Assembly (NCBI RefSeq): GCF_013340205.1
Contig: NZ_BJTG01000010.1
Coordinates: 1-64,000, forward strand
Reading direction: 5' to 3'
DNA length: 64,000 nt
DNA from: Anaeromyxobacter diazotrophicus
GTDB taxonomy: Bacteria > Myxococcota > Myxococcia > Myxococcales > Anaeromyxobacteraceae
Shown piece by piece: positions 24,787-63,561 of this stretch; position 1 is the first letter of the stretch, and each line of letters starts with the position of its first letter. Made by a program: the position numbers and the translations under genes. The notes under the pieces were generated by a model. That model was not told where the DNA came from. It made no database searches and saw nothing but the letters and a program-made list of their open reading frames with translations.

Positions 24787-24947
24787 CGCTCGCGGTCCAC
24801 CCGCCCCCCCGCCCCCCCGCTCACCCGCCCTCCCGCCCTCCCGCGCGCACCTCGGGTGCAGCCGCGCGCGGCGGGGATCCGGGCCGTTGCCGGCCGGGCC
24901 GCGAGGACCCCACATTCGCAGGGACACCTCCAACGAAGGGATCCCTC

Positions 24948-27900
24948 GTGGCAAAGCTCCCCGTCCTCTCGAGCTGGCCCGTCGCCCGTCAGCTGGCGCA
25001 CCGCGATGCGATCGGCCTCGGAGCGAGCGCCTGGTCCGAGCGGACCCGCCAGCTCGCGCCGCGCACCGCCTCCGCGGACCGGGTGGCGCGCTCGGTCTGC
25101 CCCTACTGCGCGGTGGGCTGCGGCCAGCTCGTGTACGTGAAGGACGAGCGGATCATCGACATCGAGGGCGACACCGACTCCCCGGTCTCGCAGGGCTGCC
25201 TGTGCCCGAAGGGCGCGGCCACCTTCCAGCTCGTGACCGGGTCGCACCGCGAGAAGCGGGTCCTCCACCGCCGGCCCGGCGCCACGGACTGGGAGGTGCT
25301 CTCGCTCGAGCAGGCGATGGAGCTGGTGGCGGAGCGCGTGCAGCGGACGCGCGAGGCCACCTGGACCGAGCGCGTGACCGACCCGGCGGCCAAGGAGCAT
25401 GGCCAGCTCGCCAGGCACACGCTCGGCATCGCCCACCTCGGCGGCGCCACGCTCGACAACGAGGAGAACTACCTCCTCAAGAAGCTCTACACCGCGCTCG
25501 GCATCATCCAGGTGGAGAACCAGGCGCGGATCTGACACAGCTCCACGGTCCCCGGTCTGGGGATCTCCTTCGGCCGCGGCGGCGCGACGACGTTCCCGGG
25601 CGACCTGCAGAACTCGGACGTGGTCGTGATCCAGGGCTCCAACATGGCGGAGTGCCACCCGGTGGCCTTCCGCTGGGTGATGGAGGCGAAGAACCGCGGG
25701 GCCACCGTCATCCACGTCGACCCGCGCTTCACCCGGACGAGCGCGGTGGCGGACCTGCACGTCCCCATCCGCGCCGGGAGCGACATCGCCTTCCTGGGCG
25801 GGATCATCCGCTACATCCTCGAGGGCGACCGCTGGTTCAAGGAGTACGTGACCGAGTACACCAACGCGGCCACGATCATCGACGAGCGCTTCCGCGACCC
25901 GGAGGACCCGGGGCAGGAGGGCTTCTTCAGCGGCTTCGACGCGAAGACCAACAAGTACGAGTGGGACAGCTGGAGCTACGAGGGCGTCGAGGGGGTGATC
26001 CCGGCCGCGGGCCACAAGCACGCCCACCCCGACCAGCCCGGCTCGGGCGGCGCCCCGGCCGACGCGTCGGGCATGACGAAGCGCCACCAGGATCCCACCC
26101 TGCAGCACCCCCGGTGCGTGTTCCAGCTCCTCAAGAAGCACTACGCGCGCTACACGCCGGAGCTGGTCGAGGAGACCTGCGGCGTCCCGAAGGCGCTGTT
26201 CCTGCAGGTGGCCGAGACGCTGTGCAAGAACTCGGGGCGCGAGCGGACCGGCGCCTTCGTGTACGCGGTGGGCTGGACGCAGCACACCGTCGGCGTCCAG
26301 TACATCCGCACCGCCGCCATCATCCAGCTCCTGCTCGGCAACATGGGCCGGCCCGGCGGCGGCGTGATGGCGCTGCGCGGCCACGCCTCCATCCAGGGCT
26401 CGACCGACATCCCGACGCTGTTCGACCTCCTCCCCGGCTACCTGCCCATGCCGCACGCCGTCCTCCCGGACCAGGGCGCGCTGGCGCGCTACATCGAGAA
26501 CAACCGCTCCGCCACCGGCTGGTGGAGCGAGTTCCCGAAGTACATCGTCTCCCTGCAGAAGGCGTGGTTCGGGGACGCGGCGACGAAGGAGAACGACTAC
26601 CTGTTCGACCTGTTGCCGCGGCTCACCGGCAACCACTCGCACATGACCACCGTCTCCGAGATGGCCGACGGCAAGGTGAAGGGCTACTTCGTCGTCGGCG
26701 AGAACCCCACCGTCGGCTCGATGCACGGCGCGCTCCACCGCGAGGGGCTGCGCAAGCTCGACTGGCTGGTGGTGCGCGACTTCGCGCTCACCGAGACGGC
26801 CGAGTTCTGGCGGAACGCCCCCGAGATCGACCGCGGCGAGGTGCGCACCGAGGACATCCAGACCGAGGTGTTCTTCTTCCCGGCCGCGGCCCACACCGAG
26901 AAGAGCGGCTCCTTCACCAACACCCAGCGCATGCTGCAGTGGCACCACAAGGCGATCGAGCCGCCCGGCGACTGCCGGAGCGACCTCCAGTTCGTCTATG
27001 ACCTCGGGCGCCTCCTCAAGCGGCGCTACGCCGGCTCGACCGACCCGAAGGACCGGGCGCTCCAGCTCCTCACCTGGGACTACGGCGAGGTCGGACCGCT
27101 CCGCGAGCCGGACGCGGAGCGGGTGCTCTTCGAGGTGAACGGGTACACGGTCGCGGACCGGAAGCCCGTGCCCGGGTTCGCCAAGCTCACCGACGACGGC
27201 TCGACCGCCTGCGGGTGCTGGATCTACTCCGGGTGCTACGCGGACAGCGTGAACCAGACCGCCCGCCGCCGGCCCCAGGCGGAGCAGACGTGGGTCGCGC
27301 CGGAGTGGGGCTGGGCCTGGCCCATGAACCGGCGGCTCATGTACAACCGCGCCTCGGCGGACCTCGAGGGCCGGCCCTGGTCGGAGCGCAAGCGCTACGT
27401 CTGGTGGGACGAGGCGAAGCGGCGGTGGACCGGCCACGACGTGCCGGACTTCATCGCGGACCGGCCCCCGTCCTACCGGCCCGAGCCCGGCACCGTCGGC
27501 ACCGCCAGCCTGGGGGGCAACGACCCCTTCATCATGCAGGCCGACGGCAAGGGCTGGCTCTTCGCGCCCTCCGGCCTCATGGACGGCCCCTTCCCCACCC
27601 ACTACGAGCCGGAGGAGTCGGTGGTCGAGAACCCGCTCTACGCCCAGCAGTGCAACCCGGCGCGGCTGGAGTGGCACCGGCGCGAGAACCCGTACCACCG
27701 CGCCTACGGCGATCCGCGCTTCCCGTACCTGCTCACCACCTACCGCCTCACCGAGCACCACACCGCCGGCGGCATGAGCCGCTGGCTCTCCTGGCTCTCC
27801 GAGCTGCAACCCTCCATGTTCTGCGAGGTGTCGCGGGAGCTGGCGGAGGAGAAGGGGCTCAGGAACGGCGGCTGGGCGACGATCACCACCGCCCGCGGCG

Positions 27901-28244
27901 AGATCGAGTCGCGGGTGCTGGTGACGGATCGGCTGAAGCCGCTCAAGGTGCGCGGGCGCTGGGTCCACACCATCGGGCTCCCCTACCACTGGAGCTATGT
28001 CGGGCGGGTGCGGGGCGATCCGGCGAACGAGCTCATCGGGTTCGTGGCCGACCCGAACGTCTCGATCCAGGAGTCGAAGGCGCTCACGGGGAACATCCGG
28101 GCCGGCCGGCACGGCTTCGGGCGCCGCTCCGTCACCGACGGGCTCGAGCTGCGCCTGCCGGAGCCGCCCGCGGGCGAGGCGCCCCGCGACCGGCCGGGCC
28201 TCCACGCGACCCAGCGCGAACCGCCGGCCTATCCGAGGAGGTGA
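24948..28244 (+). CDS. fdhA: Formate dehydrogenase, selenocysteine-containing molybdopterin subunit
   Basis: The product is 1098 residues counting a selenocysteine at position 196, encoded by the in-frame TGA at 25533-25535. The N-terminal 4Fe-4S cysteines are C51, C54, C58 and C86. The motif NQARI-Sec, then GISFGRGGATT, is the Mo-ligand region of formate dehydrogenases. Molybdopterin oxidoreductase domains and a C-terminal dinucleotide-binding domain follow. It oxidises formate to CO2, passing electrons to the iron-sulfur subunit encoded next. The GTG start has a weak GAAGG upstream. Unlike E. coli FdnG it has no twin-arginine signal; the 50-residue N-terminus runs straight into the cluster, so the active site is probably cytoplasmic. 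Confidence 0.95.
25547..25565 (+). promoter_or_regulatory. Bacterial SECIS hairpin of fdhA
   Basis: GGTCCCC (25547-25553) pairs with GGGGATC (25559-25565), including one G-U pair, around a GGTCT loop at 25554-25558. The loop begins 18 bases after the TGA. Loop sequence and spacing match the E. coli fdhF element as I recall it. The hairpin would recruit SelB so that UGA is read as selenocysteine. Confidence 0.88.
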
Positions 28245-28247
28245 GCG

Positions 28248-29261
28248 ATGCCCGTGAACCTCCAGACCGACTACGGCGTCCCGGGCGGCTCGCGCGCGCT
28301 CGCGCCCGAGCACGGCGCCGCCCCGGCGCGCAAGCAGATGGGCTTCTTCACCGACACCACGCTCTGCATCGGCTGCAAGGCGTGCGAGGTCGCGTGCAAG
28401 CAGTGGAACCAGCTCCCCGACGACGGCTTCCTCTTCACCGGGATGAGCTACGACAACACCGGCCAGCTCGGCGCCTCCACCTGGCGGCACGTGGCCTTCG
28501 TCGAGCGGACCACCCGGCTCCCGGGCCAGGGGACCCCGCGCGACGGCACCGAGGCGGGGACGATGGCGTTCGCGCCGCTCAGGCCCGCCGGCCAGCCCGG
28601 CACCACCAGCCTGCTGGCGGACTTCGTGGCGCCGTCGCACATCGAGTCGCCGGTACCGCTCGGCCCGACCCAGCGGGCGCTCTCGAACTTCTCCTGGCTC
28701 ATGATGTCGGACGTCTGCAAGCACTGCGAGCGCGCCGGCTGCCTGGAGGCGTGCCCCACCGGCTCGATCGTCCGGACCGAGTTCGGCTCGGTCTACGTGC
28801 AGCCCGACGTCTGCAACGGCTGCGGCTACTGCGTCTCGGCCTGCCCGTTCGGGGTCATCGCCCGGCGCGAGGACGACGGGCGCGCCTGGAAGTGCACCCT
28901 CTGCTACGACCGGCTCAAGGACGGGATGGTGCCGGCCTGCGCCAAGGCGTGCCCGACCGCCTCGATCCAGTTCGGGGAGCTGGGCGAGCTGCGGGCGCGC
29001 GGCGCGAAGCGCGTCGAGCAGCTCCTCGCGCGCGGGGTCGCCGAGGCGCGCCTCTACGGCGAGAGCGCCCTCGCGCAGCCGGGCACCGAGGGGCTGCACG
29101 CGTTCTTCCTGCTGTGCGACGAGCCGGAGGCCTACAACCTGCCGCCCGATCCCGTCGTCCCGACGAAGCACATCACCCGCGCCTGGTACGCCATGGCGGC
29201 GAGCGTGGTCGGGCTGGCGGCGCTCTGCCTGGGCGCCGTCGCCGGCGCGAGGAGGACCTGA
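28248..29261 (+). CDS. fdhB: Formate dehydrogenase iron-sulfur subunit
   Basis: The product is 337 residues. Four ferredoxin-type cysteine groups are visible: CIGCKACEVACK near residue 45, CKHCERAGCLEACP, CNGCGYCVSACP, and CTLCYDRLKDG leading to CAKACP, which suits four 4Fe-4S clusters as in FdnH. A C-terminal hydrophobic helix (MAASVVGLAALCLGAVAG) probably anchors it to the membrane. GGAGG precedes the ATG, which lies three bases after the fdhA stop. Confidence 0.94.
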   Translation: MPVNLQTDYGVPGGSRALAPEHGAAPARKQMGFFTDTTLCIGCKACEVACKQWNQLPDDGFLFTGMSYDNTGQLGASTWRHVAFVERTTRLPGQGTPRDGTEAGTMAFAPLRPAGQPGTTSLLADFVAPSHIESPVPLGPTQRALSNFSWLMMSDVCKHCERAGCLEACPTGSIVRTEFGSVYVQPDVCNGCGYCVSACPFGVIARREDDGRAWKCTLCYDRLKDGMVPACAKACPTASIQFGELGELRARGAKRVEQLLARGVAEARLYGESALAQPGTEGLHAFFLLCDEPEAYNLPPDPVVPTKHITRAWYAMAASVVGLAALCLGAVAGARRT

Positions 29262-29262
29262 G

Positions 29263-30474
29263 ATGCGCGCGAGGCACCTTCCGGACGACCGTCCGCACGA
29301 CGGCAGGAACGTCGATCCCGAGCTGGGCGCGCTCCTCGGCGAGGGCTCCCACCAGCGCGTGAAGGACCTCGCGCCTTCCCCTGCCGCGCCACGCTCGGAC
29401 GAGGTGCCCTCGCTCGCCTACGAGGCCGACCGGGGCCGGAGCTACTACGGCCTGCCGCTCCTGAAGGAGCCGGTGTGGCGCTGGTACGTCCCGGCCTACT
29501 TCTACGTGGGCGGGGTGGCGGGGGCGGCGGCGGCGCTGGGGGCGGCCGCCCAGCTCGCGGGCTGGCGCGGCAGCCCCGGCCCGGTCCGCCAGCGTCACCC
29601 CGGCGTCGAGCACCGGCTCATCGGGCGGTGCCGCCTCATCGCGACGGCCGGCGCGGGCGCCTCGGCGGTCCTGCTCATCGCCGATCTGGGCCGGCCCGCG
29701 CGCTTCCTCGACATGCTGCGCGTCTTCCGCCCCACCTCGCCCATGAACATGGGGACCTGGTTCCTCTCCGCCTTCGGCGCCTGCTGCGCCGCCTCGACCC
29801 TGCCGCACCTCTGGCCGGCGCGGCGGCCCTGGCAGCGGACGGTCTCCGACGCCGCGGCCTTCGGCGCGGGGGTGATGGGCCTGCCGCTCTGCACGTACAC
29901 CGGCGTGCTCATCGCCAACACGGCCGTGCCGATCTGGCACGGGACGCGCAACGCGCTGCCGGTCCTGTTCGGCGCGTCCGGGGCCGCCGGCGCCGCCTCG
30001 CTCCTCGAGCTGTGGCCGCCCGGGGGCACCGGCGACGACGTGGTGCACCGGTTCTCCCTGCTCGGGAAGACCCTCGAGCTGGCGCTCGGCGAGGTGTTCG
30101 CCTACGAGGCCCGGCGCGTGCCGCGCGTCGCGCGTCCGCTCCGCCGCGGCGCCTCGGGGGCGCTGTGGCGGACCGCCCAGGTGCTCTCGGCGGCCGGGCT
30201 CGCGGCGACGGCGCTCTCCCGGCGCGGCTCGCCGCTGCGGCGGACGGCCGGCCTGCTCGGCACGCTGGGCGCGCTCACGCTGCGGTTCGCGATCCTGCAG
30301 GCGGGGCGGGCGTCCGCGCGCGACCCGCTCGCCACCTCCGAGCAGCAGAGGGCCGGGCGCGGGGGCGCCGCCGAGCTTACGGAGAGGGATCGGGCGGGCG
30401 CTTCCCACCCCGCTTTGCGCGGGGTGGGAGCGGGCAGGGAGACGGAGGCCGCACCACGTGAAGAGCACCCCTGA
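29263..30474 (+). CDS. Formate dehydrogenase membrane subunit, NrfD/PsrC type
   Basis: The product is 403 residues. About eight hydrophobic segments (residues about 75-345), with PVWRWYVPAYFYVGGVAG early on, match the NrfD/PsrC quinone-reactive membrane subunits. It therefore uses a different anchor from the b-type cytochrome FdnI of E. coli, and electrons should go to the quinone pool without heme. GGAGG at 29251-29255 precedes the ATG. The last 45 residues are hydrophilic, unlike the family, and are encoded across a REP-like hairpin (30403-30429). The end overlaps moaA by 17 bp. Confidence 0.85.
   Translation: MRARHLPDDRPHDGRNVDPELGALLGEGSHQRVKDLAPSPAAPRSDEVPSLAYEADRGRSYYGLPLLKEPVWRWYVPAYFYVGGVAGAAAALGAAAQLAGWRGSPGPVRQRHPGVEHRLIGRCRLIATAGAGASAVLLIADLGRPARFLDMLRVFRPTSPMNMGTWFLSAFGACCAASTLPHLWPARRPWQRTVSDAAAFGAGVMGLPLCTYTGVLIANTAVPIWHGTRNALPVLFGASGAAGAASLLELWPPGGTGDDVVHRFSLLGKTLELALGEVFAYEARRVPRVARPLRRGASGALWRTAQVLSAAGLAATALSRRGSPLRRTAGLLGTLGALTLRFAILQAGRASARDPLATSEQQRAGRGGAAELTERDRAGASHPALRGVGAGRETEAAPREEHP
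30403..30429. repeat. REP-like hairpin at the fdh-moaA junction
   Basis: TCCCACCCCGC (30403-30413) and GCGGGGTGGGA (30419-30429) are perfect complements around TTTGC. The hairpin lies inside the 3' coding end of the NrfD-type gene, about 30 bases before the moaA start. Its CCCCGC/GCGGGG core is shared with the elements at 497-511 and 46985-46999. Confidence 0.7.
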
Positions 30475-37258: not shown

Positions 37259-40200
37259 TCAACGGCAGGGGACGAAGCGCACCGCCTCGCGCGCCTCGCG
37301 GAGCGCGGCGGCGATCCGGGAGAGCGCCTCGTCGACGTCCGCGGCGTCGTTCCCGGCGCCCAGCGAGAACCGGACGGCGCCGTGCGCCTCGGCGGCGCTG
37401 AGCCCGAGGGCCAGGAGCGCGTGCGAGGGATCGGGGTGCCCCGACTTGCACGCCGAGCCGGACGAGAGCGCCACGCCGCGCCGGGCCAGGTCGAGGACGA
37501 GCGACTCGCCCCGCACGCCGGGCAGGACGACGCAGAGCGTCCCGGGCAGGCCGTCGGCGCTCCCCACCCGCCGCAGCCCGGGCACCAGCGCGCGCAGCCC
37601 CACCTCCAGCCGTTCGACCAGCGCGCTCAACCGCGCCGGCTCCCCGGCGCGCAGCCGGCGGACGGCCAGCTCGCAGGCCTTCGCGAACCCGACGATGCCC
37701 GCCACGTTCTCGGTCCCGGAGCGCAGGCCGCGCTCCTGCCCGCCCCCGCGGACGAGCGGCGCGAGCGGGACGCCTTCCCGGACGTACAGCGCGCCCACAC
37801 CCTTCGGCCCGTGGATCTTGTGCGCCGAGACGGAGAGGAGGTCGACGCCGAGCGGGCCCACGTCGATGGCGAGCTTGCCGAGCGCCTGCACCGCGTCGAC
37901 GTGCACCAGCGCGCCCGCGCGGTGCGCGACGGACGCCAGCGCCGCGATGGGCTCGACCGTCCCGAACTCGTTGTTCGCCATCATGACGCTCACGAGCACC
38001 GTGTCCGGGCGGAGCGCGGCGGCCAGCCTCGCGGGCTCCACGCGGCCTTCGCCGTCGACCGCCAGGCGCGCGACCTCGAACCCGAGCTCCTCCAGCGCCG
38101 CGCACGCCTCGAGCACCGCCGGGTGCTCGATGGCCGTCGTCACGACGTGCCGGCCGCGCGCCCGGAGCGCCCAGGCGGCGCCGCGCACGGCGAGGTTGTC
38201 CGCCTCGGTGCCCGACCCGGTGAAGACGACGCGCCGCGCCGTGCACCCGAGCGCGCTCGCCACCGTGCGCCGCGCGGCGTCGAGCGCGGCCCGGGCGCGG
38301 GCCCCGGGGCCGTGAAGGCTCGACGGGTTCCCGTGCTCGTCGCGCAGGAAGGGGAGCATCGCCTCCAGCACCTCGGGGTCGAGCGGGGTGGTCGCGTTGT
38401 GATCGAGGTAGAGCGGGCGGGGTGCGGGCGCCGGCTCGAGGGCGGGCTCGAGGGCGGGCGGGCCGCCGGGGGCGGGCGCGCTGCGGCGAGACCCCTCGGC
38501 GCGGCGCACCTGGCACAGCAGCGCCTTGTACACGGGGAAGCCCGAGATCGGGTCCACCTGCCCGGGATCGGTGAGGACGTTGACGTTGCAGGCGCGCCAC
38601 GCCGCGGGCCCGAGCGGACCGCCCCCGCCCATGCACGCGTCCACGCAGCCGGCGGCGATCCCGTCGTCGAGCCGCGCCCGGAATGCGGCCGCGCCGCGCG
38701 CGGTCTCGATGACAGCGGGGTCGCCGTCGGCGATCCCGCGCGCGGCCGCATCGGCCGGGTGCATCGTCACCAGCGGCTCCGGCTGCCGCTCGGCCAGGCC
38801 CCGCACGCCATGGTGCTGGCTGCGGAAGTCGAAGCGCGTGCGCGTGCCGGAGCCGAGCACGAGCGGGAAGCGGCGCGCCAGGTCGGGGCGGCTCTGCGGG
38901 CTCTCCGGCGGCTCCCCGTAGCTCGGGAGCGGATCGTAACCGTGCTCGGCCAGGATCGAGGAAGCGATCTCGAGCTTGCCGCTCGGCGTGTCGAAGCCGG
39001 GGCGCCCGTCCGGGCGGAGGAGCCCCTTCTCCCACTTGCGGTACTCCATGCCCGGCGCTGGGACGCGCACCGTGCCGCCGGCCCGGCGCACGTCCTCCAG
39101 GGTGAAGCCGCTCCCCTCGAGGGCGTGCCGGACCACCTCCTCCTCGGTCTGCGGGTAGAGGTGGCCGTACCCGAGCCGGCGCGCCAGCTCCCCCAGGATC
39201 ACGGCGTCGCTGCGCGCCTCGCCGACCGGCGGGACCAGGCGCTCGCGGAGGCGGAACGCCGGGCCGCTCCGCAGGTACGAGAGGTTCTCGTACCCGGTCG
39301 TCGCGGGCAGGACCAGGTCCGCCCAGGCAGCGTCAGCGGTCAGGTAGCGGTCGATGCAGACGAGGAGCTCGAGCCCGCCCAGCGTCCGCCGCCAGAGCGC
39401 GGGATCGGGCCAGGCGGTGACGAGGGAGCCGCCCAGGACCAGCAGCGCCCGGATCCGGTACGGGTCGCCGTCGAGGACGGCGGGCGGCAGCGCGATCGCG
39501 TGCGACTCGCCCCGGTAATGCGTGTACAGCGGGAACCGGTCCCGCCCGAGCGCCTTGCCGACGTCCGGGTTCGGCTGGAGCCGGGTCCGGTTCTGCGGGA
39601 ACAGCCCCTGCTTCATGCGCAGGAGGAGCCCGCCCGGCACGTCGAGCTGACCGGCCAGGGCCCAGAGCACGAGCTGCGCCCGGAGCGCCTGCACGCCGTT
39701 CCCGGAGTACTCGAGGCCGGTGTACGTGACCGGCGCCGCGCCGCGGGCGGCGGCGATCCGGCGCGCCAGCCGGCGGACCGTCGCCGCCGGCACGCCGGTG
39801 ATCCCCTCCACCACCTCGGGCCGGAAGTGCTGCACCAGCCGGCGCAGGTCGTCGAATCCGACCGTGAAGTCGCGCGCGAAGCGGTCGTCGTGGAGCTCCT
39901 CGGAGAGGAGCACCTCGATGAGCCCCAGCGCCAGCGCGCCGTCCGTGCCGGGGCGGATCGGGATCCACTCCGCGCCCGCCGCCACGGCCGTCTCGCCGCG
40001 GCGGGGATCGATGGCGATCACCTCGGCGCCATTCCGGCGCGCCTGGAGCACCTGGTGGTGCGCCCGCGGGGGCGAGTCGGTGGCGGGGTTCGCGCCCCAC
40101 AGCACGACGAGCTCGGCGCGCTCGAGGTCGCTCTCCATCCCCACCAGCATCTCGCCGAGCGTGACGTGGGGCGCGATCATCGCGAACGCGACGTAGCAGA

Positions 40201-40657
40201 GCGCGCCGACGCCCAGCGTGTTCGGCGAGCCGAACGGGAACAGCACGCTCGAGGCGGACGACACCGTCACGCCGGCCGGCTGGTAGATGTCGCACAGCGC
40301 CTGGTCGAAGCTGCCGCGTCCGGTGTAGATCGCGACCGCCTCCGGGCCGTGCTCCTCGCGCAGGCGCAGCAGGCGCCGGGCCAGCCCGTCCATCGCCTCG
40401 TCCCACCCGACGGGCTCGAAGGCGAGGGTGCCCTTGGGGCCGCGGCGCCGCAGCGGCGTCGCGACGCGGTCCGGGTCGTGGACGACGTCGGGCGAGCGGC
40501 TCCCGATGGTGCAGAACAGGCCGGCCGGCGCGTCCGGGGCCGGCTCGACGCGCACGAGCCGATCGCCCGCCACCACGGCGCGGATCGGGCACCCGGCCGG
40601 GCAGATCCCGCACAGCCCGTCCCGGCCCTCCTCCCGCGCCGCGATCATGCGGCCCAT
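37259..40657 (-). CDS. Molybdopterin oxidoreductase fused to cysteine desulfurase
   Basis: A single open frame of 1132 residues. Residues 1 to about 725 form a molybdopterin oxidoreductase: 4Fe-4S cysteines C16, C19, C23 and C49, a probable Mo-ligand Cys154 in [10 protein letters not shown] as in polysulfide/thiosulfate reductases, and the C-terminal dinucleotide-binding domain. There is no twin-arginine signal. A Pro/Ala linker (about 725-745) leads to a complete class V aminotransferase-fold cysteine desulfurase (about 746-1132): [14 protein letters not shown] lysine K947 in [10 protein letters not shown] and catalytic C1070 in SSGSACKSG. Both halves look active. The ATG at 40657 is one choice; ATG 40648 and GTG 40684 are possible. 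It lies downstream of gltBD. Confidence 0.9.
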
Positions 40658-40744: not shown

Positions 40745-42241
40745 CTACGGCAGCACCGTCTCCCCGTACATCAGGTACTTGTCCACGCCCCGCGCCGCCT
40801 TGCGGCCCTCGTGGATCGCCCACACAACCAGGGACTGGCCGCGGGAGCAGTCGCCGGCGGCGAAGACGCCGGGGACGCTCGTCATCTTCTCGGCGTCGGT
40901 CGCGACGGTCCAGGTGGCGCCGCGCTCCTCGAGCTTGAGGCCGAGCTCGCCGACCAGGCCCTTCTCCGGGCCGAGGAAGCCGAGCGCGAGCAGCACCAGG
41001 TCGGCGGGGATGACCCGCTTCGAGCCCTCCACCTCGCGCGGGCCCACCGGGCGCCCGTCCTGGCCGTGCAGCCAGTCCACGCTGACGAGCTCGATGCCGG
41101 TCACCCGGCCCGCCTCGTCGCCGAGGAAGCGCTTGCTGGAGACGGCGTACTGGCGGGGATCCTCGCCCCAGAGCGCCTTCGCCTCCTCCTGCCCGTAGTC
41201 GAGCTTGTAGACCTTGGGCCACTGCGGCCACGGGTTGTCGGCGGCGCGCTGGTCGGGCGGGCGCGGCATGATCTCGAGCTGCGTGACGCTCCGCGCCCCG
41301 TGGCGCAGCGCGGTGCCGACGCAGTCGGTGCCGGTGTCCCCGCCGCCGATGACGACCACGTGCTTGTCCTTGGCCGAGAGGTACTTCCCGTCGCGGTGGC
41401 CGGAGTCGAGCAGGGACTTCGTGTTCTGGTGCAGGAAGTCCATCGCCAGGTGGATGCCCCCGAGCTGCCGGCCCTCGAGCTTCAGGTCGCGCGCCTGGGT
41501 GGCGCCGGTGGTGAGCACCACCGCGTCGAAGTCGGTGAGGAGGCGCCCGGGGGCGAGGTCCTTGCCCACCTCGACGCCGGTGACGAACTTCACGCCCTCC
41601 TCCGCCATGAGGCGCACGCGCCGCTCGACCACGCCCTTGTCGAGCTTCATGTTGGGGATGCCGTACATGAGCAGCCCGCCCACCCGGTCGGCGCGCTCGT
41701 AGACGGTCACCGCGTGGCCCGCCTTGTTGAGCTGGGCGGCCGCGGCCAGGCCGGCCGGGCCCGAGCCCACCACCGCCACCCGCTTGCCGGTGCGCGCCAG
41801 CGGCGGCTGGGCCTTCACCCAGCCCTGCGCGAAGGCGCGGTCGACGATCTCGCGCTCGATGTTCTTGATGGTGACCGGCGGCGCGTTGATGCCGAGCGTG
41901 CAGGAGCCCTCGCAGGGCGCCGGGCAGACGCGCCCGGTGAACTCGGGGAAGTTGTTGGTCTTGTGGAGGCGGATGATCGCCTCCTGCCACTGGCCCCGGT
42001 AGACGAGGTCGTTCCACTCCGGGATGAGGTTGTTCACCGGGCAGCCCGCCGCCATGCCGGCGATGAGCTGGCCGGTGTGGCAGAAGGGCACGCCGCAGTC
42101 CATGCAGCGCGCACCCTGCTGCCGCATCGTCTCCTCGGCGTAGGGCGGGTGCTCCTCGCTCCAGTCCTTGGCGCGCTCGAGCGGCGGGCGCACGTGCGAC
42201 GGCTCGCGGTCGTACTCCAGGAATCCGGTCGGCTTGCCCAT
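40745..42241 (-). CDS. gltD: Glutamate synthase small (beta) subunit
   Basis: The product is 498 residues. The N-terminal Cys-rich region ([12 protein letters not shown], then CPAPCEGSC) binds the two 4Fe-4S clusters, and an FAD site ([14 protein letters not shown]) and an NADPH site ([14 protein letters not shown]) follow, with the second FAD motif in [15 protein letters not shown]. It supplies electrons from NADPH to GltB. The ATG lies two bases after the gltB stop, so the two are one operon. Confidence 0.96.
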
Positions 42242-61259: not shown

Positions 61260-61892
61260 TCAGATCAGGTAGAGCAGCGGATAGAGGAAGATCCAGATGA
61301 GGTCGACGAGGTGCCAGTACATCCCGCCCAGCTCGACCGGGGTCGAGTAGCCGTGGTCGTAGGCGCCGCGCCAGCAGAGCACCATCAGGATGGCCAGCAC
61401 CGTCATGCCGATGAGGACGTGGATCCCGTGGAGCCCGGTGAGGATGAAGTACAGGGTGAAGAACATCGGCGCGCCGGTGGCCGTGAGCTCCGAAGAGTGG
61501 AAGTAGCGCCCGGGGAGCAGGCCCTCCTCGAAGTCGTGCGTCCACTCCCAGCCCTTGATGACGAGGAAGACCGCCGCGAAGGCGAGCGTGATGGCGAGGC
61601 AGAGCGCCGCCGTCCGGCCCTTGCCGTGGCGCGCGAAGTGGTGCGCGAGCGCCACGGTCAAGGAGGAGGTGATGAGGACGACCGTGTTGATCGTCCCCGC
61701 CGCCACGCTGAGGTGCTCGCTCGAGGCCGCGAAGCCCGCCGGGTAGAGGAACCGGTACACCGAGTAGGCGGTGAACAGCCCGCCGAAGAGGAGCAGCTCG
61801 GTGGCGAGGAACAGCCACATCCCGATGCGCGCCGCGTGCTCCTGCTGGCGCAGGTTCGGGAAGTGGTGCGCGACGTACGCCTCAGGCTGCAT
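61260..61892 (-). CDS. ctaE: Cytochrome c oxidase subunit III
   Basis: The product is 210 residues with five or so membrane helices. Typical motifs are GMWLFLATELLLFGGLF near the start, FFTLYFILTGLHGIHVLIG and YWHLVDLIWIFLYPLLYL at the end. The short five-helix form is common in caa3 oxidases. Its start overlaps the end of the ctaD gene by 11 bp. Confidence 0.94.
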   Translation of the reverse strand: MQPEAYVAHHFPNLRQQEHAARIGMWLFLATELLLFGGLFTAYSVYRFLYPAGFAASSEHLSVAAGTINTVVLITSSLTVALAHHFARHGKGRTAALCLAITLAFAAVFLVIKGWEWTHDFEEGLLPGRYFHSSELTATGAPMFFTLYFILTGLHGIHVLIGMTVLAILMVLCWRGAYDHGYSTPVELGGMYWHLVDLIWIFLYPLLYLI

Positions 61893-63561
61893 GCGTCACC
61901 TCGGCGGCGTGCGGGTCGCCGGACTGGACCGACCCCTCGGTGTAGTCGTGCGGGGGGGACGGGTAGACCGGCTGGCCGATGAAGTTCTCCGGCGGCGGCG
62001 GCGAGAGGGTGCCCCACTCGTAGCCGCGCGAGCCCCACGGGTTCGCGCTCGCGACCCGCCCGTACTTCAGCGACCACAGGAAGTAGATGAGGATGAGGAG
62101 GAAGCCGAAGCCGAGCAGGGTCGCGCCGAGCGTCGAGGCGACGTTGAGCGGCCAGAAGCGCTCCGGGTACGAGTAGTAGCGGCGGGGCATGCCGTAGTTC
62201 CCGAGGAGGAACTGCGGGATGAAGGTGGCGTTGAAGCCGAAGACGATGGTGACCGCCCCGACCAGCCCCCAGCGCTCCGGGTACATGCGGCCGAACATCT
62301 TCGGCCACCAGTAGTGGAGCGCCGCCAGCCAGGCCATGATGGTCGCCCCCACCATGATGAAGTGGAAGTGCGCCACCACGAAGTACGTGTCCTGCCAGTG
62401 CACGTCGAGCGAGACGGTGGCGAGCGCGATCCCGGTCATCCCGCCGAAGACCAGGAAGAACAGGAAGCCGCAGAAGTAGGCGAACCAGGCGGTGAACGCG
62501 ACCGACCCCTTATAGAGGGTGGCCGTCCAGTTGAAGACCTTGATGGCGGTGAAGATGCCCACGAACATCGAGAGCACGCCGAAGATGCCGGCGTCGAGCG
62601 TGGACTGCCCCGAGGTGAAGAGGTGGTGGCCCCAGGTGAAGAACCCGACGAAGGCGATGCCGAGCGAACTGAAGGCGACCGCCTTGTAGCCGAAGATGTT
62701 CTTGTGCGCGGCGGCGCAGATGACCTCCGAGATCACCGCCATCGCCGGCAGCACCATGATGTAGACGGCCGGGTGCGAGTAGAACCAGAACATGTGCTGG
62801 AAGAGGATGGGATCGCCGCCGCGCGCCGGGTCGAAGATGCCGAAGCCGAAGGCGTGCTCCACCGCCACCATGAGCAGCGTGATGCCGAGCACCGGGGTGG
62901 CCAGGATCTGGATGATCGAGGTGGCGTAGATCGACCACACGAAGAGCGGCATGCGCATCCAGGTGATCCCGGGGGCGCGGAGCGTGTGGGCGGTGACGAT
63001 GAAGTTGAGGCCGGTGACGATGGAGGAGAACCCGAGCACGAACGCGCCGAGCAGCACCGGCACCACCTTGGTGATGGTGGTGGTGCTGTAGGGCGCGTAG
63101 AAGGTCCAGCCGGTGTCGGTGCCGCCGTGGATCATCCCGTACAGCGCGATGCCGGCCCCGATGACGTAGAGGTAGAGCGACAGCAGGTTGAGGCGCGGGA
63201 AGGCCACGTCGCGCGCCCCCAGCATGATCGGCAGGAAGAAGTTGCCGAAGATGCCGGGGATGGCCGGGATCATGAAGAGGAAGATCATGACCACGCCGTG
63301 CAGCGTGAACATCCGGTTGTAGGTCATCGCGCTCATGATGGTCGGGCCGGGCGTGAGGAGCTCGATCCGGACCAGCAGCGCGAACAGCCCGCCCACGAAG
63401 AAGAAGAGCGTGGTGAGCGCGAGGAACATGATGCCGATGCGCTTGTGGTCGCGCGTCAGCAGCCAGGAGCGGATCCCGGCCTCCGCGTTGAGGTAGTTGC
63501 GCGGGTTGTAGGCCGGCGCGTCAGCGGGAGATGGTGGGGTCGTAGCCGGGGACTGGGACAT
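61882..63561 (-). CDS. ctaD: Cytochrome c oxidase subunit I, A2-type
   Basis: The product is 559 residues with twelve helices. Heme and CuB ligands are visible: the early His in FTLHGVVMIF, WFYSHPAVYIM, the His-His pair in WGHHLFTSG, and the last pair in VVAHFHFIMVG. The helix VI motif is YSHPAV rather than GHPEV, so the D-channel Glu is absent and the Tyr-Ser pair replaces it, the hallmark of A2-type heme-copper oxidases. It reduces oxygen to water and pumps protons. The gene overlaps the subunit II gene by 41 bp. Confidence 0.96.
   Translation of the reverse strand: MSQSPATTPPSPADAPAYNPRNYLNAEAGIRSWLLTRDHKRIGIMFLALTTLFFFVGGLFALLVRIELLTPGPTIMSAMTYNRMFTLHGVVMIFLFMIPAIPGIFGNFFLPIMLGARDVAFPRLNLLSLYLYVIGAGIALYGMIHGGTDTGWTFYAPYSTTTITKVVPVLLGAFVLGFSSIVTGLNFIVTAHTLRAPGITWMRMPLFVWSIYATSIIQILATPVLGITLLMVAVEHAFGFGIFDPARGGDPILFQHMFWFYSHPAVYIMVLPAMAVISEVICAAAHKNIFGYKAVAFSSLGIAFVGFFTWGHHLFTSGQSTLDAGIFGVLSMFVGIFTAIKVFNWTATLYKGSVAFTAWFAYFCGFLFFLVFGGMTGIALATVSLDVHWQDTYFVVAHFHFIMVGATIMAWLAALHYWWPKMFGRMYPERWGLVGAVTIVFGFNATFIPQFLLGNYGMPRRYYSYPERFWPLNVASTLGATLLGFGFLLILIYFLWSLKYGRVASANPWGSRGYEWGTLSPPPPENFIGQPVYPSPPHDYTEGSVQSGDPHAAEVTHAA

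Follow-up and report, generated by a model that had tools for sequence, protein, structure and literature searches.

The 1132-residue protein encoded at positions 37,259 to 40,657 of the window (the whole 64,000-nucleotide stretch of Anaeromyxobacter diazotrophicus DNA that was analysed) is very probably a metallopterin-dependent ergothioneine synthase (MES). This identification is based on its architecture, its residues, the link of its family to EgtD and an AlphaFold model. The enzyme type is known, though rare. It was characterised in 2022 with CaMES from Caldithrix abyssi (Beliaeva & Seebeck 2022, PMC9516567), which overturns the original prediction that no characterised protein has this form. 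MES is an oxygen-free route to ergothioneine, which is usually interpreted as an antioxidant, and its discoverers call it the first molybdenum enzyme that forms a carbon-sulfur bond (PMC9516567). The new element is a MES that is co-encoded with the usual, oxygen-dependent EgtB-EgtD route, with SenA/SenB and with haem-copper oxidases.

The fusion gene is a single frame on the minus strand that runs from an ATG at 40657 (M1 in the residue numbering) to a stop at 37259. The linker contains neither a stop nor a frameshift. Pfam places Molybdop_Fe4S4 (22.9 bits), Molybdopterin (102 bits), Molydop_binding (72 bits) and Aminotran_5 on the one protein. The uninterrupted join of a MopB-type enzyme to a cysteine desulfurase, predicted with no strand given, is thus borne out. 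The gene, its parts and its upstream neighbour are as follows.

37259..40657, minus strand: fusion gene, MES homologue, 1132 aa (open frame, Pfam and comparison with PMC9516567)
38504..40657, minus strand: MopB/DMSO-reductase-family module, N-terminal, residues 1-718 (Pfam)
38414..38503, minus strand: variable Pro/Ala-rich linker, about residues 719-748 (alignment; residues 730-744 with pLDDT < 50)
37262..38413, minus strand: NifS/IscS-type cysteine desulfurase, C-terminal, residues 749-1132 (Pfam Aminotran_5, 258.5 bits)
40745..42241, minus strand: gltD, glutamate synthase small subunit (TIGR01317, 748 bits)

The best solved relatives of the MopB module are thiosulfate/polysulfide reductase (2vpw) and acetylene hydratase (2e7z). 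The NCBIfam NifS model scores 442 bits on the fusion, under its equivalog cut-off of 531 bits. The best Mo-family model is that of the formate dehydrogenase alpha subunit (TIGR01591), but it scores only 239 bits where the cut-off is 666, which rules out a formate dehydrogenase. A polysulfide reductase is ruled out by the PhsA score (228 bits, cut-off 694), by the lack of any export signal seen in the N-terminus and by the lack of adjacent partner-subunit genes. The absence of a Tat signal and of partner subunits had been predicted correctly.

The fusion is flanked by gltD and a patatin-like ORF. The gltD gene lies on the same strand, 87 bases upstream, and itself adjoins gltB. In three relatives with flanks, it was not found within 1.5 kb of MES. 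GltD is ruled out as an electron partner of MES, because it is a complete subunit of glutamate synthase with gltB beside its gene, and because that gene is away from MES in these relatives. It is regarded as a neighbour outside the MES system.

CaMES has 1136 residues, with a bis-MGD module at 1-718 and a functional cysteine desulfurase at 747-1136 (PMC9516567). The window protein shares the module order, the approximate length (1132 vs 1136 aa) and, through its family, the association with EgtD. In both cases, the nearest structures include acetylene hydratase and proteins of the DMSO reductase family. CaMES residues C14/17/21/48, C153, K952, C1074 and C1135 correspond to window C16/19/23/49, C154, K947, C1070 and C1131 with a near-constant offset, a match made by published residue numbers and architecture. 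Cys153, Lys952, Cys1074 and Cys1135 are described as essential in CaMES, and mutation of Cys153 abolishes activity (PMC9516567). Residue conservation was assessed in 35 aligned fusions and seven stand-alone Mo homologues. The positions concerned are listed here.

40511..40612, minus strand: 4Fe-4S cysteines C16, C19, C23 and C49 (CaMES C14, C17, C21, C48; alignment)
40292..40294, minus strand: Cys122 (alignment)
40196..40198, minus strand: Cys154, predicted Mo/W ligand (CaMES Cys153; alignment, 35/35 fusions)
37817..37819, minus strand: Lys947, PLP lysine (CaMES K952; alignment, 35/35 fusions)
37448..37450, minus strand: Cys1070, catalytic persulfide Cys (CaMES C1074; 35/35; flexible loop, pLDDT < 50)
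37379..37381, minus strand: Gly1093, counterpart of CaMES C1097 (alignment)
37265..37267, minus strand: Cys1131, penultimate residue, second relay Cys (CaMES C1135; flexible tail, pLDDT < 50)

The four cluster cysteines are invariant in all 35 fusions and in all seven stand-alone homologues. Their predicted positions, and those of C154, K947 and C1070, are exact when M1 is placed at 40657, and all seven residues are invariant among the fusions. In the alignment with thiosulfate/polysulfide reductase, Cys154, predicted as the probable Mo ligand, does fall in the region of the Mo ligand. Cys1131 is present in 34 of 35 fusions, and the exception (L005) is a prematurely ending frame. Unlike CaMES, the window copy lacks the dispensable third conserved cysteine. 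The position of Gly1093 is Cys in 33 of 35 fusions and Ser in one (L014), and the change to Gly is common to none of the other 34. C1097 is called strictly conserved in MES (PMC9516567). Gly1093 thus counts against the identification, but since loss of C1097 costs CaMES only two-fold, as reported there, this cysteine is not taken as a defining feature for activity. Cys122 is invariant in all fusions and is Lys or Trp in the stand-alone homologues. It is a candidate Mo-side sulfur acceptor, which is not discussed in the portions of PMC9516567 drawn on here. The MES-specific invariant positions (C122, H277, L153 and V156) are all kept in the window copy.

The two-domain architecture occurs in many phyla. 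When bacterial and archaeal genomes are scanned, 31 full-length fusions besides the window's appear without interruption (52-67% identity); several others are truncated at contig ends, and a frameshift divides one (L043). The hosts are Chromatiaceae, Gemmatimonadota, Acidobacteria, Deltaproteobacteria, Nitrospirae, Latescibacterota, Neomarinimicrobiota and a few archaeal MAGs. Within the window's class, four of 147 genomes carry the fusion, the window's own included. The nearest kin are 66-71% identical to the window MES. An assembly artefact or a recent chance fusion is ruled out by the 31 independent full-length fusions and the three in the class. The homologues are thus not confined to pairs of separate genes, and the database search proposed with the original prediction yields both the architecture and a recurrent gene context.

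EgtD is the first enzyme of ergothioneine synthesis. When the genes neighbouring the fusion are clustered, one strongly recurrent neighbour emerges in 20 of 38 loci, mostly right beside the fusion, and PF10017 identifies it as EgtD, the histidine-specific methyltransferase. In 19 of these 20 loci the EgtD-family gene is no more than 0.5 kb from the fusion, and in the remaining one the distance is 2.2 kb. EgtD is present in 33 of 36 fusion genomes (29/32 reached via fusion loci and 4/4 class members) and in none of the seven genomes whose close Mo homologue is without a desulfurase. EgtD is also common around the window's own lineage, with 14 of 16 sampled high-quality genomes of the class containing it. 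As it is common in the window's own family, co-occurrence there adds little, and it is adjacency in other lineages that carries weight.

In CaMES, sulfur that the desulfurase takes from cysteine travels along a persulfide relay to the Mo/W site and on to trimethylhistidine (hercynine) (PMC9516567). The same study reports for CaMES that the C-terminal part has desulfurase activity, that the transfer is obligatorily intramolecular and that sulfur exchange at the metal site is reversible. By analogy, the C-terminal PLP domain of the window protein would move the sulfur of L-cysteine onto Cys1070 as a persulfide, a step shown for CaMES. Cys1070 would hand it to Cys1131 on the flexible C-terminal tail, and Cys1131 would deliver it to the Mo/W(bis-MGD) centre held by Cys154, a transfer proposed in PMC9516567. 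Finally, the imidazole C2 of Nalpha-trimethylhistidine, supplied by the EgtD encoded elsewhere in the genome, would attack the terminal Mo=S sulfur to give ergothioneine. This attack is proposed, not proven, for CaMES (PMC9516567). An external electron donor would be unnecessary because the sulfur arrives at the sulfane level. The absence of a Tat signal and of partner subunits may likewise reflect cytosolic chemistry that needs no net external electrons. The AlphaFold model (mean pLDDT 85, pTM 0.66) has two folded modules with a disordered linker between them. Confidence is low for the loop that bears the catalytic Cys and for the C-terminal tail that bears the second relay Cys, so both are probably mobile, as a relay would require. 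A sulfur-transferring enzyme with persulfide feeding the Mo site, one of three options in the original prediction, comes near the published mechanism, but neither Nalpha-trimethylhistidine as the acceptor nor ergothioneine as the product was foreseen.

The setting of the window copy differs from that of the published MES. The published MES genomes are described as those of anaerobes and were found through the absence of EgtB/EanB (PMC9516567). The window copy is apart from egtD, and its genome contains haem-copper oxidases, EgtB and SenA. EgtB scores 579.5 bits (cut-off 360) and is directly followed by EgtD (G000:C4:47704-48600; TIGR03438 396 bits, cut-off 290.9); this egtBD pair is on another contig, away from MES. 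The selenoneine synthase SenA scores 506.6 bits (cut-off 420) and the selenosugar synthase SenB 378.5 bits (cut-off 300). Hercynine made by EgtD could thus be used by three enzymes of this genome, SenA, EgtB and MES. The haem-copper oxidase (COX1) family has six members there.

L070:5776-7835 (about G000:C6:269775-271834), minus strand: SenA and SenB, above curated cut-offs
61882-63561, minus strand: COX1-type haem-copper oxidase subunit I (455 bits), one of the six

EgtB is above its cut-off in six of 36 fusion genomes examined: the window's, two of its family, one of its order, a Gemmatimonadetes MAG and the isolate Thiorhodococcus minor DSM 11518. In quick trees of MES, these genomes occupy three distinct regions, which puts EgtB and MES together in at least three MES lineages. 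T. minor (loci L028 and L071) is a cultivated purple sulfur bacterium with EgtB-EgtD and MES. A COX1-family protein is found in 20 of 23 fusion genomes tested, where several of the fusion genomes are MAGs and the family includes nitric-oxide reductases. With the same caveats, the wider set contradicts the published claim that MES is exclusive to anaerobic species. Judged from sequence, the window MES probably supplies ergothioneine when oxygen is too scarce for the co-encoded EgtB. On balance, a slight preference goes to an oxygen-switched system in which one EgtD feeds EgtB, MES and SenA, ergothioneine is kept across oxic-anoxic shifts, and the pairing, which arose repeatedly, shows MES to extend beyond strict anaerobes. 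MES together with EgtB in genomes with haem-copper oxidases makes the need for ergothioneine under anoxia a testable question.

Two features of this genome speak against the identification: egtD is not adjacent, and EgtB is a second candidate for the sulfuration of hercynine. The window protein could be a MES-like enzyme that sulfurates another heterocycle, after sub- or neofunctionalisation following transfer, since EgtB already covers ergothioneine. The high-scoring EgtB with its EgtD is consistent with this, as are the identity to the nearest kin and the private Cys to Gly change. However, the MES-specific invariants are all retained, and in the nearest kin without EgtB (L001 and L004) MES adjoins EgtD, which makes a different substrate very unlikely.

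A self-maturing molybdoenzyme, in which the desulfurase only sulfurates its own cofactor or feeds the 4Fe-4S cluster and the Mo site performs ordinary redox chemistry, is extremely unlikely. Models for such maturation are IscS-FdhD for formate dehydrogenase and ABA3 for xanthine-oxidase-type enzymes. ABA3 acts once per cofactor on other enzymes and belongs to a different Mo family without a MopB module. As proposed for the window protein, ABA3-type Moco sulfurase has a desulfurase domain that hands sulfur to molybdenum, and such transfer is known from cofactor maturation (PMC9516567). The formate dehydrogenase alpha model does rank first among Mo-family models, but its score is far under the cut-off, and the fusion is strongly linked to EgtD. 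The CaMES Mo module with K952A is still active in sulfur exchange (PMC9516567), so the desulfurase serves every turnover and not cofactor maturation. The formate-dehydrogenase-style self-sulfuration originally suggested is therefore not favoured over MES.

The window MES shares the MopB fold, the 4Fe-4S cluster and the metal-ligand Cys with acetylene hydratase (a tungsten enzyme) and PhsA/PsrA, which lack a desulfurase domain and catalyse other reactions. PsrA is exported and has partner subunits. With the NifS/IscS desulfurases, it shares the PLP Lys and the catalytic Cys on a flexible loop. Those enzymes stand alone, whereas the window desulfurase is fused and ends in a conserved C-terminal Cys-Arg/Lys. 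Separate NifS-like genes are also present in the organism.

Some close homologues of the MES Mo module, about 48-51% identical, have no desulfurase. Six of the loci (L038, L039, L040, L041, L042 and L048) encode stand-alone 735-aa Mo enzymes that are paired with a Trm112p + Methyltransf_11 methyltransferase, not with EgtD. The genomes are of sulfate-reducer type and without EgtD, and the residue at the Cys122 position is Lys. These proteins may be a further kind of Mo enzyme that inserts sulfur, acting on a substrate other than that of MES.

The window also contains formate dehydrogenase genes. The alpha-subunit frame, which ends at 28244, has an in-frame TGA at 25533 (NQARI-U-HSSTV), a putative selenocysteine site.

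24900-30474, plus strand: formate dehydrogenase genes (alpha, 4Fe-4S and NrfD-type subunits)
28248-29261, plus strand: formate dehydrogenase 4Fe-4S subunit
29263-30474, plus strand: formate dehydrogenase NrfD-type membrane subunit
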